Shown: in pieces, positions 10,012 through 20,045 of the stretch
Numbering within the stretch: position 1 is the first letter of the stretch
Layout: each line of letters starts with the position of its first letter
Translations under genes and position numbers: made by a program
Assembly: GCF_001956985.1 (NCBI RefSeq)
Contig: NZ_CP019082.1
Location: forward strand, 5,146,001 to 5,210,000
Origin: Paludisphaera borealis
GTDB lineage: Bacteria; Planctomycetota; Planctomycetia; Isosphaerales; Isosphaeraceae
Direction of reading: 5' to 3'
DNA: 64,000 bases
The notes under the pieces: generated by a model
The model's input: only the letters and a program-made list of their open reading frames with translations
Told to the model about the DNA's origin: nothing
Databases searched by the model: none

Positions 10012-12738
10012 ATGCGGAGGTGGGCGTTGGCGAGTCAACGGAGAGGCATGATCTGGGCCGAGCGAGCGGTGGTCGCGCTCATCTTGGTGAGCCTCGCCGG
10101 AACCGTCCATCTGGTGATCTCGATCCACCGCCAGGCCCTGACGGCTCCAGGGCCGGTCGCGGTCGCGACGGTCCCCGAGATCGCCAAGCCGGCCGAGCCC
10201 CCTCCGGCTCAGGTCGTGGCGGCGCCATCTCGGCCTAAAATCCCTAAGCAGCCCAAGTCGGTCGATCCGCCACCTCCCCCGGAGGATCCGACCAAGAAGG
10301 CGCTTGCCGAGCTTTCGGGGGCGACGGCCCGTGAGATCGAGGAGACGAAGCAGCTCGACGAGCGAGCCACGGCGATGGAGAAAGCGCGCCGCGCGTCGGC
10401 GGCTGGGGCGGAGGGATGGCGGCGGCGTGAGATGCTGGTCAAGCAGCAGGTCTCGACCCTCGTCCGCCAGGCCGAGAAGATCGACCGCGACGTCGACGAG
10501 CTGGCGGCCCAGCGCGACGTGCTCGCCCGCGAGCGTGACGCACTCAAGGCGGCCCTGGCGAAAGTCCCCGGCAAAGGGAGCTTCGCCGTCTTGCCCTACA
10601 AGGGGGAGAACGGGACCTGGCGGCGGCCGATCGTGCTCGAATGCACCAACGGTTCGGTCACGCTTCGTCCCAACGGGCCCAGTTTCTCGATGCTCGACCT
10701 CTCGGGACTGATCAATCCCCGATCGAGCCCGGTCATCATCTCCATCGCCCGCGAACTCCTCAAAATCCAGGGGTCCGACTCGCCCGACGGCTCGCCCGTC
10801 GCGCCTTATTTCGTGTTCCTGGTCCGGCCAGACGGCATCCGCCCCTATTACGAGGCGCGCGCCCGGCTCGAACCGCTGGGCATCGCCTTCGGCTACGAGC
10901 TGATCGATCAGGATCTCAAGGTCGACGTCCCCGACTTCGACAACCTCGCGACCTGGGACGGCTCCACGCCCCTCGACGTCCCGCCTTCCAATCTCGCCGC
11001 CCTCGGATCGGGTTCGGGCTCCGGCTCGGGGCCTGGTTCCGGCTCCGGCCCCGGCTCGGGAATGGGCTCAGGTGGATCCGGAGCCCATGGCGGCAACGGC
11101 AGCGGCTTCGGGGGCGACGGTTCGAGCGGTCTCGGCGGCGGCGGTCTGGCCTGGCCCGGGGGGGCGGGCGGCTCGCGGTCGCGAACCGGCTCGGGGCCGC
11201 TGGCCGGCGCGTTCGGAACGGCCGGAGGATCACGGGCCGCCGGATCGAACGGCGGCGGCAATGGTAACGGCACCCGGGGCGGCGGCGGCTCGCCCGACGA
11301 TTTCGTGTGGCCGTCGGCGCGCGGCGGCGGTTCAGGTGCGGGCTCAGGCGGCGGCTCCTGGTCCGGGGGCTCGGCGGGGGGCTCTGGCGGCGGCGCCGGC
11401 GGGGGGGACTCGGACTCGCCAGGAGCGGGCGACAAGGGAACGGGAACCGCCCGAGAACCCGGGCGCGGATTGGGAATGGGATCGGGATCAGCGTTTGATC
11501 AGCTCCCCCCGCTCGAACCGGCCGATCCGTTGGCGAAGCTGGGTGGCGGCGGTGGGTCGGCGAAGCCCTCGGGGGACTCCGCCTCGGGGACGAAGCCGGG
11601 TACGGGGCGAGGAACCGGGGATCGCGTCGCGATCCATCCTGGGACGCTCGGGGCGGCGGGCTCGGCGAGGCAACCGGCGGGCGGTGGCGCGGGCGTCGGT
11701 CTGGCGGCTGGCGAAGGACTGAAAGCGCTCGCGGCTGGAACCGACGCCGGGCGGTCGCAAGGCGTGGGGATGGGGGCGGGGACGGAAACGGCCCCGAGCG
11801 GGCTTGATCCGACCGGAACGCGTCGGCCGGGCGGAGGGGCGAGCGCGGGACGCACGGCGGCGGCCGGCGAGCCTCTCCCGTCGCTTGAAGCCGCGCCTGG
11901 GACGGGGGCGGGCTCGGGCCTGGCCGCGGCTTCGGAGTCCAGCGCGATGACGGGAGAGCCGGGCTTGATGTGGGGAGGCGGAACGCCGGGGGCCGGAGGA
12001 TCGGGAACTGCGGCGGGCGCGGGCACCGGTGCCGGATCGAAGGACGAGAACGCGGCGAAAGGCTCGGGCTCGACCGGCGGCTCTCGCGCGTTGCTCGGGC
12101 TCGGCTCGGGCGCCAGCCAGGGAACGCCGAACAGCGGCAGCCCGAATTCCGTACCGCCCGGCGGAATCGGAGTCGGGCTCGGCTCGCTCGCCAGTGCGGC
12201 CTCGGCGTCGAACAGCCTGGGCTCGCTCGGCGGCTCGACCTCGTCGTCGTCGAGCAGCAGTAGCAGCGGCTCCAGCGGCGGCTCGGGATTGACGCTCGGC
12301 TCGGCGGCCAGTCAGGGCGGCGGCGGTTCGAGTTCCAGTTCGGCGTCGAAAGACCCCGACATGGAGCCGCTCGTCAAGAGCCGGATCGCCGATCGTCCCA
12401 CGCCGGCGATCGACGTGCCGTTCGAGATCGTGGTCGCGTGCGGGGCCGACGGCCTGGTGGTTCATCCGGGAGGGTATCGGATCACCGCGCGGTCGCTCAA
12501 GGAAGAGCGGAAGGACAGCCTGCTGATCCGGCAGCTCGTGGCCGTGGCGGTGCAACGCGCCGAGACCGACCCGAGCATCCGGCCGAAGCCCCGGGTGAAG
12601 TTCCTGGTCGAGGACAACGGCGGCTCGACGTTCTGGGAGGCGCGCAGGCAGGTGCTGTTCGCCGGCCTCGACTGGCCGATGACGCTCCACGTGACCGGAA
12701 CGCAGAATCCTCGTCTCCGCGACAAGGAGGCATGGTAA
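10012..12738 (+). CDS. Membrane-anchored coiled-coil protein with a giant Gly/Ser-rich linker
   Basis: 908 residues, no family recognised. The order is: one N-terminal transmembrane helix (about residues 14-36, AERAVVALILVSLAGTVHL); a Pro-rich stretch (45-95); a charged coiled coil (about 100-185); a folded domain (about 190-320) containing PYFVFLVRPDGIRPYYEAR followed by LEPLGIAFGYELI; an extremely Gly/Ser-rich low-complexity stretch (about 331-780); and a C-terminal domain (about 785-908) containing VKFLVEDNGGSTFWEARRQV. The two folded parts look like the same beta-alpha-beta module, reminiscent of ExbD/TolR periplasmic domains (inference). ATG 10048 with GGAGAGG just upstream is an alternative start. 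The stop overlaps the next start (TAATG). Confidence 0.75.
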   Translation: MRRWALASQRRGMIWAERAVVALILVSLAGTVHLVISIHRQALTAPGPVAVATVPEIAKPAEPPPAQVVAAPSRPKIPKQPKSVDPPPPPEDPTKKALAELSGATAREIEETKQLDERATAMEKARRASAAGAEGWRRREMLVKQQVSTLVRQAEKIDRDVDELAAQRDVLARERDALKAALAKVPGKGSFAVLPYKGENGTWRRPIVLECTNGSVTLRPNGPSFSMLDLSGLINPRSSPVIISIARELLKIQGSDSPDGSPVAPYFVFLVRPDGIRPYYEARARLEPLGIAFGYELIDQDLKVDVPDFDNLATWDGSTPLDVPPSNLAALGSGSGSGSGPGSGSGPGSGMGSGGSGAHGGNGSGFGGDGSSGLGGGGLAWPGGAGGSRSRTGSGPLAGAFGTAGGSRAAGSNGGGNGNGTRGGGGSPDDFVWPSARGGGSGAGSGGGSWSGGSAGGSGGGAGGGDSDSPGAGDKGTGTAREPGRGLGMGSGSAFDQLPPLEPADPLAKLGGGGGSAKPSGDSASGTKPGTGRGTGDRVAIHPGTLGAAGSARQPAGGGAGVGLAAGEGLKALAAGTDAGRSQGVGMGAGTETAPSGLDPTGTRRPGGGASAGRTAAAGEPLPSLEAAPGTGAGSGLAAASESSAMTGEPGLMWGGGTPGAGGSGTAAGAGTGAGSKDENAAKGSGSTGGSRALLGLGSGASQGTPNSGSPNSVPPGGIGVGLGSLASAASASNSLGSLGGSTSSSSSSSSSGSSGGSGLTLGSAASQGGGGSSSSSASKDPDMEPLVKSRIADRPTPAIDVPFEIVVACGADGLVVHPGGYRITARSLKEERKDSLLIRQLVAVAVQRAETDPSIRPKPRVKFLVEDNGGSTFWEARRQVLFAGLDWPMTLHVTGTQNPRLRDKEAW

Positions 12739-13829
12739 TGGGTGCGAATCTTCAAGGCGCGAACGATTCGACGCTGTCGCGCATCCGAGTGCTGCTGCCA
12801 CTGCCGAGCGTGCTCGCCGCGATCGTGGCGCTGAGCTTCTGGACGTCTCGGGATCGCGGCCCGCGCGACCCGGCGGCGACGGTCGCCGCGCCCGCTTCGG
12901 CCGTCGCCGCGCCTGCTCCGGCCGTGGCCGAGGTTCCCGTCGAAGTCGTCGAGGAGGCGCCCGACGAGGAGCCGGCGCAGGTCGCGCCCGAGCCTCCCAA
13001 GCTCGATCGCGCGGCGGTCGCGAAAGCGGAGGCGGCCCTTGACGAGGCCAGCCGCGACCACGCCCGCGCCGAGGCTCGGACCGACGCCGCCAAGCGGAGC
13101 CTGGAAGCCGCCGCCAACCAGTCGGCGCTGGAGGCGAGCAAGGCGCGGAAGCTGGCGTTTCGAGTCCGCGACCCGTCCGCCCAGATCGCTCGGGCCTCGG
13201 CTCGCGGTGGTTTCCTCAAGGCCGATCGCGACAAGCTCAAGACCGAGGTCGCCTCGCTGCGGAGCCTGCCGTTGCCCAAGGCGACCACGATCCTCAGCAA
13301 GAACCCGGTCTCGCAGCCGGCGGGGGGCGACGAGTTCCATTTCGAGCTGCGCCGCGAACGCGTCAGCTACGTGAACCTCGACCGGCTCCTCGAACTGGCC
13401 AAGTCCGACGCCCAGGTTCGCATTCGGATGGCCGATCGGATGGGGATGGTCACCTCCGAGGTCGGCCCGGTCGGCTGGTTCTCGCTCACGTACGTCCTGG
13501 GCCGGGCCCAGCCGGGTATCGAGGAGCTGATGGAGCGGCACAGCATCCGGTTCGATCTCCGGGGCTGGGAGGTCGTCCCCACCTCGGACCATCGCGGCGA
13601 TACCTACGAGGCGACACGCAACCCGATCTCCCAATACGCGATGGCGATCAAGCGTCTCACTCCAGGGCGGTCGGTCGTGACGATGTGGGTTTATCCCGAC
13701 AGCTTCAAGCTGTTTCGCAAGCTCCGCGACGAGCTGAACGACCGCGGCTTCAGCGTCGCCGGCCGCCCGCTTCCCGAAGGCATGACGATTCGAGGCAGCC
13801 CGATGGGCTCGGTGTCGGCCACGCAATAA
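12738..13829 (+). CDS. Membrane-anchored coiled-coil protein, partner of the Gly/Ser-rich protein
   Basis: 363 residues. The start at ATG 12738 shares one base with the preceding stop (TAATG) and has AAGGAGG seven bases upstream, so the two genes are translationally coupled. The layout mirrors the upstream protein: N-terminal hydrophobic segment (about residues 17-36), Ala/Pro/Val-rich linker, coiled coil (about 95-185, KAEAALDEASRDHARAEAR...), then a folded domain ending in SVVTMWVYPDSFKLFRKLRDEL and GFSVAGRPLPEG. That end resembles the strand-helix-strand units of the partner. It is probably exposed outside the cytoplasmic membrane as part of a complex with the partner. Function unknown. 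Confidence 0.75.
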   Translation: MGANLQGANDSTLSRIRVLLPLPSVLAAIVALSFWTSRDRGPRDPAATVAAPASAVAAPAPAVAEVPVEVVEEAPDEEPAQVAPEPPKLDRAAVAKAEAALDEASRDHARAEARTDAAKRSLEAAANQSALEASKARKLAFRVRDPSAQIARASARGGFLKADRDKLKTEVASLRSLPLPKATTILSKNPVSQPAGGDEFHFELRRERVSYVNLDRLLELAKSDAQVRIRMADRMGMVTSEVGPVGWFSLTYVLGRAQPGIEELMERHSIRFDLRGWEVVPTSDHRGDTYEATRNPISQYAMAIKRLTPGRSVVTMWVYPDSFKLFRKLRDELNDRGFSVAGRPLPEGMTIRGSPMGSVSATQ

Positions 13830-13840
13830 GACATAAGCCG

Positions 13841-14725
13841 TCAGCGGGCCGGGACGCCGCCGCCCTGGAGGTTTCCGGGGCGCGAGGCGTACCGGCCGCC
13901 GCTGTCGTGGGCGATGCGCTGGAGGTGGTCGCCGGCCAGGCCGCCGGCCAGGTCGATGCAGTGGATCGGTATGTTGCGGGTGTTGGCGCCCGCGACAGCC
14001 TCGACGGTCCCGTCGGGGAACTCGCCGTCGGAGAGCAGGAACACGGCGTCCGGCCGCAGTGCGAGCGCCTGCTTGATCGCGCGTCGCGGGCTGGTTTCGC
14101 CGTCAGGGTCGATCAGCCGCAGCCAGGCGGTCAGCAGGTCCTTGTTGTGCTGGTCGGCGGGGCGGGGGATCGGGCCGCCGGGCATGGTCGTCGTCTCGTC
14201 GTTGTAGAAGATGACCTCGAACTGTTGCGGGCTCTGGAGCGCGAAGACGCTTCGCCTCAGCTCGATCGTGGCGCGCGTCAGCCGGTCGTCGTCGATCATG
14301 CTCCCCGACTGGTCGACGACGTAGATGAAGAACCGCCCGCGCGCCCGGATGCCGAAGAACGCCGCCTGCCGCCAGGGGGGCTCGTCGCGCGCGTCGTCGA
14401 CCTCGTAGCCGGGTTGCGGGTCGCCGGGAGACGCGCCGGGGGGCAGCAAGAACGGGCTCCGCCGCCGCGCTTCGGCCTCGGCCTTGGTGAGAACCCGGGT
14501 TTCTCCGCTCGGGTCGCTTTTGGGCTTGGCCTTGTCCTTGTCCTGGGGCCTGGTCTTGTCTTTTTCCTTGGCTTTGGCCGTCTTGCCGCCGGGCGCGGGC
14601 TGGGCTTTCGACTTGGCCGGCGGCGGCGCGGGTTTCGAGGCGGGCGCGTCTTGAGCCGCGAGGCCGCCGGCCGCGACCAGCAAGACAAGCCCGAGCGCGA
14701 CGGTGCTTCGATGTGACAGCCGCAT
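13841..14725 (-). CDS. Exported von Willebrand factor A (VWA) domain protein
   Basis: 294 residues. A signal peptide ends near residue 25 (LVLLVAAGGLAAQDA). A Lys/Pro/Ala-rich linker follows (25-80), then a VWA domain from about residue 130. The MIDAS motif DxSxS is intact as D138-S140-S142 (VVDQSGSM), followed by VIFYNDETT and the later FLLSDGEFPDGT. Such domains bind ligands through a divalent metal ion. The gene converges on the coiled-coil pair with an 11-bp gap. A functional link is possible but not shown. Confidence 0.85.
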   Translation of the reverse strand: MRLSHRSTVALGLVLLVAAGGLAAQDAPASKPAPPPAKSKAQPAPGGKTAKAKEKDKTRPQDKDKAKPKSDPSGETRVLTKAEAEARRRSPFLLPPGASPGDPQPGYEVDDARDEPPWRQAAFFGIRARGRFFIYVVDQSGSMIDDDRLTRATIELRRSVFALQSPQQFEVIFYNDETTTMPGGPIPRPADQHNKDLLTAWLRLIDPDGETSPRRAIKQALALRPDAVFLLSDGEFPDGTVEAVAGANTRNIPIHCIDLAGGLAGDHLQRIAHDSGGRYASRPGNLQGGGVPAR

Positions 14726-18718: not shown

Positions 18719-20045
18719 ATGGATCAGCTTATCCCCGGCCTCGCCGCGCTGGTAGAGGCGTTCCGCGATGTCTTCCATCCCCAGGTCTTCTCCACCTTCC
18801 AGGGGCTGACCGCCGGTTGGATCGTCTGCCTTGGCCCGCATACCATCAGCGAGGTCTGGCCGGCCACCGGCCTGGCTGCCCGGTGCCACCACGACACCGC
18901 CTATGCCGTGTTTCCACTCCGCATGCTGGGAGTGGGACGACCTGGGGATCGTCCTGGCCACGCTGATCCTCACCCATCTGGTCCCCGGCGGTGTCGTCTG
19001 GGTGGCCGTCGACGACACGCTCTGTCACAAGCGCGGCGCCAAGGTCGCCTTCGGCGGGATCTTCCTCGACGCCGTGATGTCGTCGAAGGGGCACAAGACC
19101 TTCCGGTTCGGCCTCAACTGGGTTGTGCTCGGCATCGCCTTGCCGATCCCGATGCGCGCCGATCGCTACTACTGCCTGCCGGTGCACTGGCGGCTCTTCT
19201 GCAAGAAGGGCCAGCCGGAATACCAGACCCGCCCCCAGTCGGCCGCGGCGCTGGCGCGGAAGTTGGCCCAGGCCAATCCCGAGCGGACCTTCTGGCTGGT
19301 CGGCGACAGTGCCTACGTCAACGCGGCCGTGCTGCGGGATCGGCCTGCGAACCTCCAGGTCATCGGGCCGCTGCACTGGAAGGCCGCGCTGTACGAGCGG
19401 TCCGCCCCGCGACAGCTCAAGCAGAGGGGCACCTTGCGCAAGAAGGGGGATCGCCTCCCGAACCCCAAGGCGATGATCGAGGACACCACGACCTACCCGG
19501 CGGAACTCCTGACGATCGACTTCCCGAAGGGGGCACGCGAGTTTCGGGTGCAGGTGATCCGTGACATGCTCTGGTACAAGGGGAGCAAGACCGATCCGGT
19601 GATGGTGGTGCTGGTCCGCGACCCGCTGGGCCAATGGCGCGTCGAGGCGTTGGTGTCGACGGACACGACGGTCTCGGCAGGTTTCGTGATCCTGGGATAC
19701 TGCCGAAGATGGAGTGTGGAACTGGCGTCCTTCGACAGCAAGCAGTTCCTCGGGCTGCACGATCCGCGGGTGCGGAGCGAGCGGAGCGTGGAGCGGGCGC
19801 ACCCGATGGCGTGGTTCGTGGGATCGCTGACGATCCTGTGGTACTGCGTGAAGGGTCATGAGGGATCCCACGTCGAACGGGAACGTCCGTGGTACGAGGA
19901 CCGAGTGATGCCGACGTTCACGGACATGCTGGGTGCGTTACGCTTGCAGATGTGGGAATTCAAAGTTTACGGAGAGTCCGGCGAGGAGCTACCCTCACCA
20001 GAATGCATCAGGAAACTACTCCACAAGCTATCAGCCGTGGCCTGA
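18719..20045 (+). pseudogene. IS4-superfamily DDE transposase, two frames joined by +1 shift
   Basis: The N-terminus (MDQLIPGLAALVEAFRDVF, with GGAGG eight bases before ATG 18719) is read in one frame as far as about 18910. The rest (HSACWEWDDLGIVLATLILTH... onward to 20045) continues one base further on. A single extra base near 18911-18914 (GTGTTTCCAC) explains the shift. Catalytic residues are visible: D in VAVDDTLCHKRG, D in WLVGDSAYVN, and E in YCRRWSVELASFDSK, which fits the Y-2-R-3-E-6-K signature of the IS4 superfamily. Total length when joined is about 442 residues. It is either a dead transposase or one made by programmed +1 frameshifting. Confidence 0.75.

Follow-up and report, generated by a model that had tools for sequence, protein, structure and literature searches.

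We analysed a 64,000-nucleotide stretch of the genome of Paludisphaera borealis (assembly GCF_001956985.1, contig NZ_CP019082.1, positions 5,146,001 to 5,210,000; hereafter the window, whose numbering is used below), a planctomycete of the class Planctomycetia and the family Isosphaeraceae, and focused on two adjacent genes that we call A and B. Gene A (10012..12738) codes for 908 amino acids arranged as a membrane helix, a long helix, a folded N-module, a Gly/Ser-rich linker and a folded C-module. Gene B (12738..13829) codes for 363 amino acids arranged as a membrane helix, a long helix, a module and a conserved tail. Both genes, and all of their features given below, are on the + strand. The two open reading frames of the initial annotation are present at these positions with all three of the motifs that it quoted, and the order of membrane helix, coiled coil and module that it proposed is found in A as well as in B, with a long helix in the place of the coiled coil. 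As argued below, the pair is rather likely to be the diverged axle pair of a TolQ/TolR-type motor that has become separated from its wheel.

The membrane helix of A (10057..10125) carries a glutamate, Glu17, at its predicted cytoplasmic edge (10060-10062). It is followed by the long helix (residues 93-184; 10288..10563), which was taken from an AlphaFold2 (AF2) model, and by the N-module (residues 190-305; 10579..10926), which was placed by the model, an alignment and profile comparison and has the pattern GT.RRPI.IEC ... PY..L.VRP.G...YY.AR..L....GYEL. The C-module (residues 800-894; 12409..12693) was placed by the model and by profile and structural comparison. Between the modules the initial annotation had seen some 450 residues of Gly/Ser; two modules are indeed present, and the linker (residues 317-790; 10960..12381) has 474 amino acids, but it is Gly/Ser-rich (49% Gly+Ser, 32% Gly) and not pure. 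Measured in 11 other loci of the family, its length ranges from 258 to 578 residues. In B, the membrane helix (residues 17-36; 12786..12845, from sequence and hydropathy) has no acidic residue, and the modelled long helix (residues 91-140; 13008..13157) leads to the module (residues 199-353; 13332..13796, from model and alignment), where a core of WVYPDSF, helix and strand is conserved near the end. The alignment also shows a near-invariant tail, I.GSP.GS.SA.Q (13782..13826). Along the full length of B, hydropathy picks out the N-terminal stretch only; in A a borderline value (1.66) is also reached at residue 799, where a strand is predicted. In the models, each long-helix region is a single long helix; sub-threshold matches to SMC coiled-coil models were obtained for both proteins of a relative, L007. 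The mean predicted local distance difference test score (pLDDT) is 52 for A, with 70-89 in blocks of the N-module, 73-88 in blocks of the C-module and values below 50 over residues 319-796 (the linker), and 69 for B, with 50-93 in blocks of its module.

The two genes are closely coupled. The TAA stop codon of A (12736-12738) shares one base with the ATG of B at 12738, a ribosome-binding-like AAGGAGG (12724..12730) lies 5' of B, and a second in-frame ATG for B is present at 12732. When the first start codon near the end of A is taken as the start of B, the genes of 21 other family loci overlap by 1-7 nt in 15, abut in 1 and are separated by 35-94 nt in 5. A homologue of A lies 5' of B in 26/27 loci read, the 27th (L004) beginning within B, so that the co-occurrence expected by the initial annotation holds in 26/26 loci that cover the stretch before B. 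In one locus (L041:6439-8918, genome G031) A is broken across two frames between the matches to its N- and C-modules, by a frameshift or a sequencing error. B is single-copy in the P. borealis genome and gives one match per genome in 42/45 Isosphaeraceae genomes, in 26/26 good genomes and in 21/21 genera. When 392 genomes were searched phylum-wide, strong B matches were confined to the class, with 38/40 class genomes among the matches listed (P. borealis and G022 included); in one of the two class genomes without a match, G388, gene A is cut by the contig end. Weak B matches were found in 13 genomes outside the class, with expectation values (E) of 1.8e-10 to 9e-4.

The initial annotation had also described repeated modules in A, and this was borne out. 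In the AF2 model both modules have a common order of strand, strand, short strand, short helix, helix, strand, helix and strand, and the N-module differs by short extra strands at its ends. Comparison of the N- and C-module profiles gave a probability of 97.7 and E 2.2e-12 over 93 columns, and none of 100 column shuffles did as well against a widened N profile. On this sequence evidence the two modules of A are homologous. Note that the N-module alignment was made without the family loci missed by a motif search (L030, L032, L035, L037, L038, L042, L043, L045 and L046), the split gene of L041, three loci that were not entered (L005, L040 and L044) and the near-copies L100 and L101. The further claim that B ends with a similar module stands in part. 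The core of B matches the C-module profile (E 0.0012 over 33 columns, with 0/100 shuffles as good in widened form), but the tie of the A modules to B is weaker, since the match of B to the N-module has E 0.17 with narrower profiles and, although it reaches E 6e-5 with the widened profile, was equalled there by 2/100 shuffles.

A likeness of these modules to ExbD/TolR, also part of the initial annotation, is clearest for the C-module. In structural comparison of the A model by VIA, ExbD/TolR periplasmic domains take the first five places among 996 aligned chains (Z 7.1-7.7, 70-90 residues), and the C-module weakly matches a profile of 31 ExbD sequences from the phylum with E 0.002, a value reached by 0/100 column shuffles. 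Seven VWA proteins, used as the negative control for profile comparison, gave E 0.41 in the series against the ExbD profile, and 0.21 and 0.24 in the others. The alignments to TolR 5by4 and to the ExbD dimer 8pek, two of the five chains, cover residues 279-897 of the A model and so parts of both modules; that the modules might sit together like an ExbD or TolR dimer is a lead only, as the model has a predicted template modelling score of 0.28 and no error matrix.

Several results weigh against this kinship. The Z scores for A lie under VIA's mark for a clear match, and the ExbD value of 7.7 is tied within 1 with a small ribosomal subunit chain at Z 6.9. Foldseek ranks chains of small ribosomal subunits, presumably protein S11, above ExbD for A; its matches do not fall under E 1e-3 for the A and B models, nor under E 0.02 for B. 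ExbD and TolR are both absent from the VIA listing for B, where pantothenate kinase and CD38 come out on top (best Z 6.3), which we take to reflect a common arrangement. Against the ExbD profile, the N-module (E 0.22), the B module (E 0.05) and the class pore helices described below (E 0.06 and 0.07) have no match, so that the profile check proposed by the initial annotation favours the C-module but leaves the N- and B-modules matchless. Neither A nor B matches any family in Pfam (E up to 1) or NCBIfam (E up to 0.1), the B model contains a long insertion in its module, and both models were built from thin alignments (7 sequences for A and 8 for B). When the P. borealis genome was searched for ExbD (PF02472) at E up to 1, the A-B locus was not among the matches. 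A search of solved-structure sequences with the N, C and B profiles returned nothing convincing (best E 0.025, an enolpyruvyl transferase). A canonical Tol or Ton system was rejected, as the same genome has four other ExbB loci, where one or two ExbD genes passing PF02472 lie next to the ExbB gene, and no Pfam or NCBIfam model recognises A or B. Overall, A and B probably work like ExbD/TolR-type proteins while failing that family's own tests, and they may descend from them.

The partner expected of such proteins is present in relatives. The gene 5' of A in L007, a metagenome-assembled planctomycete contig, passes PF01618 with 43.5 bits. B matches were found in 36 class genomes outside the family, of which 25 were fetched; one locus, L108, is cut by the contig end, and in all 24 loci with DNA upstream of A the order is ExbB-like gene, A, B (E 1.8e-27 to 2.6e-76 for the ExbB-like gene). 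The membrane helices of these relatives have distinct motifs. In B the motif is DSFLD or close to it, and its two Asp are invariant in 27/27 rows; in A it is LFPFL followed by Ala, Thr or Ser, again in 27/27 rows; L122 and L123 had no good enough helix match and are absent from both counts. The A-type helix is related to the B-type helix (E 2.4e-5), indicating that one axle type has retained the acid and the other is without it. Four loci from outside the class were fetched. An ExbB-like gene occurs in each of them and a match to the A-type helix in three, one of these matches being weak (E 0.026). One further contig, L008, is labelled Candidatus Kuenenia stuttgartiensis and is probably misbinned, its operon's ExbB-like protein being 91% identical to that of L007.

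Additional loci (L059, L120, L121, L212-L214, L122 and L123) have an ExbB-like gene together with a short A gene, a B-type gene or both, and some of their short A proteins bear a helix Asp, in the form SLFAFQD, SLFSFQD or TLFAFQD. In the ten loci scanned for such other sets, the short A proteins have a single module and the C-module profile found no match at E up to 0.1. The second module of A thus looks, from sequence comparison, like a later duplication within this class.

The situation in the Isosphaeraceae is different. The initial annotation asked for a conserved ExbB/TolQ-like partner; it lies directly upstream in the relatives outside the family, but a tblastn search with 11 proteins of ExbB type as queries (E up to 0.01) detected no such gene in the 64 kb window, nor in 24 family loci that reach 2.3-7 kb upstream of A. 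The 5' neighbour of A in the window is a gene for an iron-containing alcohol dehydrogenase. Both membrane helices are also altered. The class pore-helix profiles found nothing in the P. borealis genome at E up to 1, and in 14 family genomes they gave one clear match (E 8.8e-4, in G034, to another module) and otherwise weak ones (E 0.06-0.9). The conserved membrane Asp of ExbD/TolR type is absent from A and B of the window, the core of the B helix is without an acid in 22/25 family loci, and a Glu is present at the membrane helix of A in 25/25 family loci (24 genomes).

Genes passing PF01618 are nevertheless present in 45/45 family genomes. The ExbB-like gene closest to the L007 protein is matched in 43/45 of them and lies at C1 ~1.63 Mb in P. 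borealis. There (L056:6033-8267, minus strand; C1 ~1.629-1.631 Mb) this family-specific gene adjoins a gene for a 257-amino-acid protein with the membrane helix GEDSFVAVVVTKLTGALLFILLLTMVIMALLP. The helix is near-invariant in 8/8 sequences. The protein is full-length in 7/7 family genomes tested and in 0/22 other class genomes, four of which have weak partial matches, and its gene is within ~2.5 kb of the ExbB-like gene in 8/9 genomes and ~15 kb away in G034. Its helix matches the class pore helices with E 8e-4 (A-type) and 0.0015 (B-type) over 18 columns and has no match to the ExbD profile. A transfer of the class pore helix to this short Isosphaeraceae protein is only suggestive, because the genome profile search missed the protein and the ExbD profile did not match it. 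Elsewhere in the same genome (C1 6726618-6731660), a 2946-amino-acid open frame has many repeats resembling the middle part of the 257-amino-acid protein. In a tree of ExbB-like proteins, the nine sampled family members form one clade (99/97) and the 25 operon proteins another, and the tree does not place the first relative to the second; L126 (wrong strand), L129 (duplicate) and L138-L141 (same genes as operon rows) were left out of it.

We suggest that A and B are two unlike ExbD/TolR-type axle subunits, produced as a pair from coupled genes, whose ancestor would have been a three-gene motor module of an ExbB/TolQ-like wheel, A and B that is intact in other members of the class. There it would form a motor of the 5:2 type in which the two axle proteins are unlike. 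Proton flow past the membrane Asp of B would drive the ExbB-like wheel, and motion or force would reach the periplasm through A and B; the C-module of A, on its long flexible linker, may engage a distant target there, such as the wall or the outer membrane. We infer the wheel, the proton site on B and the outward arm of A and B from what is known of TolQR, ExbBD and MotAB, whose mechanism is established (sections of the review PMC9389320). In the family of the window the wheel gene no longer adjoins the pair and other helices have taken the place of the two canonical pore helices; here A and B are most likely what survives of the old system, its membrane-anchored periplasmic arm.

Within this axle-pair interpretation there are different ways to read what the arm now does. 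With some reserve, we consider it possible that motor coupling was lost and that A and B form a passive tether bridging the inner membrane and the wall or outer membrane. The missing wheel gene beside the pair, the undetected canonical pore helices, the acid-free B helix of most family loci and the long, variable linker all fit a tether, but the Glu of A is strictly retained and the modules are conserved family-wide, with decay seen only in the split A gene of L041. It is more doubtful that the axle is driven in trans by the family ExbB-like protein together with the nearby short one-helix protein, the Glu of A replacing the lost Asp of B. This would be congruent with the near-universal presence of that ExbB-like gene and its own clade in the tree, with the restriction of the short protein to the family, with its near-invariant helix and the likeness of that helix to the A-type pore helix, and with the Glu found in all 24 genomes. 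However, nothing but presence in a single clade, amounting to one evolutionary event, links this distant locus to A and B, the short protein has no acid in the core of its helix and was missed in its own genome by the class profiles, and the tree leaves the relation of the family and operon clades unsettled. A still less likely proposal is that in the Isosphaeraceae the motor came to be divided between two loci and the residue that carries the protons changed its place. Elsewhere in the genome the wheel would then lie together with a pore-helix protein that has no acid, A and B would have lost their pore helices, a new invariant Glu in A would replace the Asp of B, and the tandem modules of A would be the within-chain equivalent of the ExbD/TolR dimer.

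Two explanations lie outside the axle-pair interpretation. We give little credence to the modules being ExbD-like merely as a common alpha/beta arrangement, with genes that were never motor parts and an upstream ExbB-like gene that is an unrelated neighbour. The middling Z scores, the ribosomal chains near or at the top of the structural listings and the matchless N- and B-modules would agree with this, but the ExbB-A-B order in every readable class locus, the DSFLD and LFPFL helix motifs and the paralogous sets of ExbB, short A and B at other loci argue against it. A defence system of the Zorya kind, that is a MotA-like channel with a partner, deserves next to none. The ExbB-like protein of relatives does match ZorA models (best E 1e-9), as MotA/ExbB relatives do, but in PADLOC A is matchless and B matches LmuB alone (E 0.061), A and B of L007 match other systems' proteins weakly (E 0.0046 or worse), no ZorB match was found for A, B or the L007 relatives, and B occurs in nearly every family genome with one match each.

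Two other genes of the window may be mentioned. A gene for a VWA-domain protein (13841-14725, minus strand) is convergent with B and has homologues near A-B in 14/27 loci, the window included; its product was set aside as a force transducer, one of the two sequences read having no His before its hydrophobic stretch. Further downstream is a transposase open reading frame (18831-20045, + strand; Pfam DDE_5, E 3.4e-14).

When compared with known systems, A and B resemble TolQ-TolR and ExbB-ExbD (PF01618, PF02472) in being putative axle proteins with one predicted membrane helix and small alpha/beta modules that would lie in the periplasm and, in relatives, in the adjoining ExbB-like gene and the membrane Asp of B. 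They differ in being two dissimilar proteins with long helices, of which A is two-moduled on a 474-residue linker, in lacking a match to ExbD models and, in the Isosphaeraceae, in having no wheel gene found adjoining and no canonical Asp. A published cluster (described in part of PMC12204202) likewise has one wheel and two unlike axle genes, but ExbD genes of the other ExbB loci in the P. borealis genome pass PF02472, whereas A and B fail it. As described in sections of PMC9389320, the AglRQS gliding motor of Myxococcus has one MotA-like and two MotB-like subunits, but AglQ and AglS are both predicted to have a membrane Asp, which here is found on B alone in relatives and on neither protein in the Isosphaeraceae. 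GldLM, in the same sections, has an axle protein bearing a long multi-domain periplasmic shaft, but GldM self-dimerises, and A and B match no Pfam or NCBIfam family. The kind of motor, one wheel with two unlike axles, is already known, and the portions of the literature searched do not mention the tandem-module A, its failure against ExbD models or a family whose form lacks the wheel. A transposon essentiality data set has been published for Planctopirus limnophila (PMC10632474), and the portions of its main text consulted do not mention TolQ, MotA or a proton channel. This species would make the intact operon testable, provided that the operon is present there.

The usual view of ion-driven 5:2 motors is that of a single wheel and a dimeric axle bearing an essential acid. 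The class-wide operon described here has two unlike axles and the acid on one of them only, and together with a family in which wheel, axle and acid are apparently apart it would constitute a natural experiment on the parts that such motors need.

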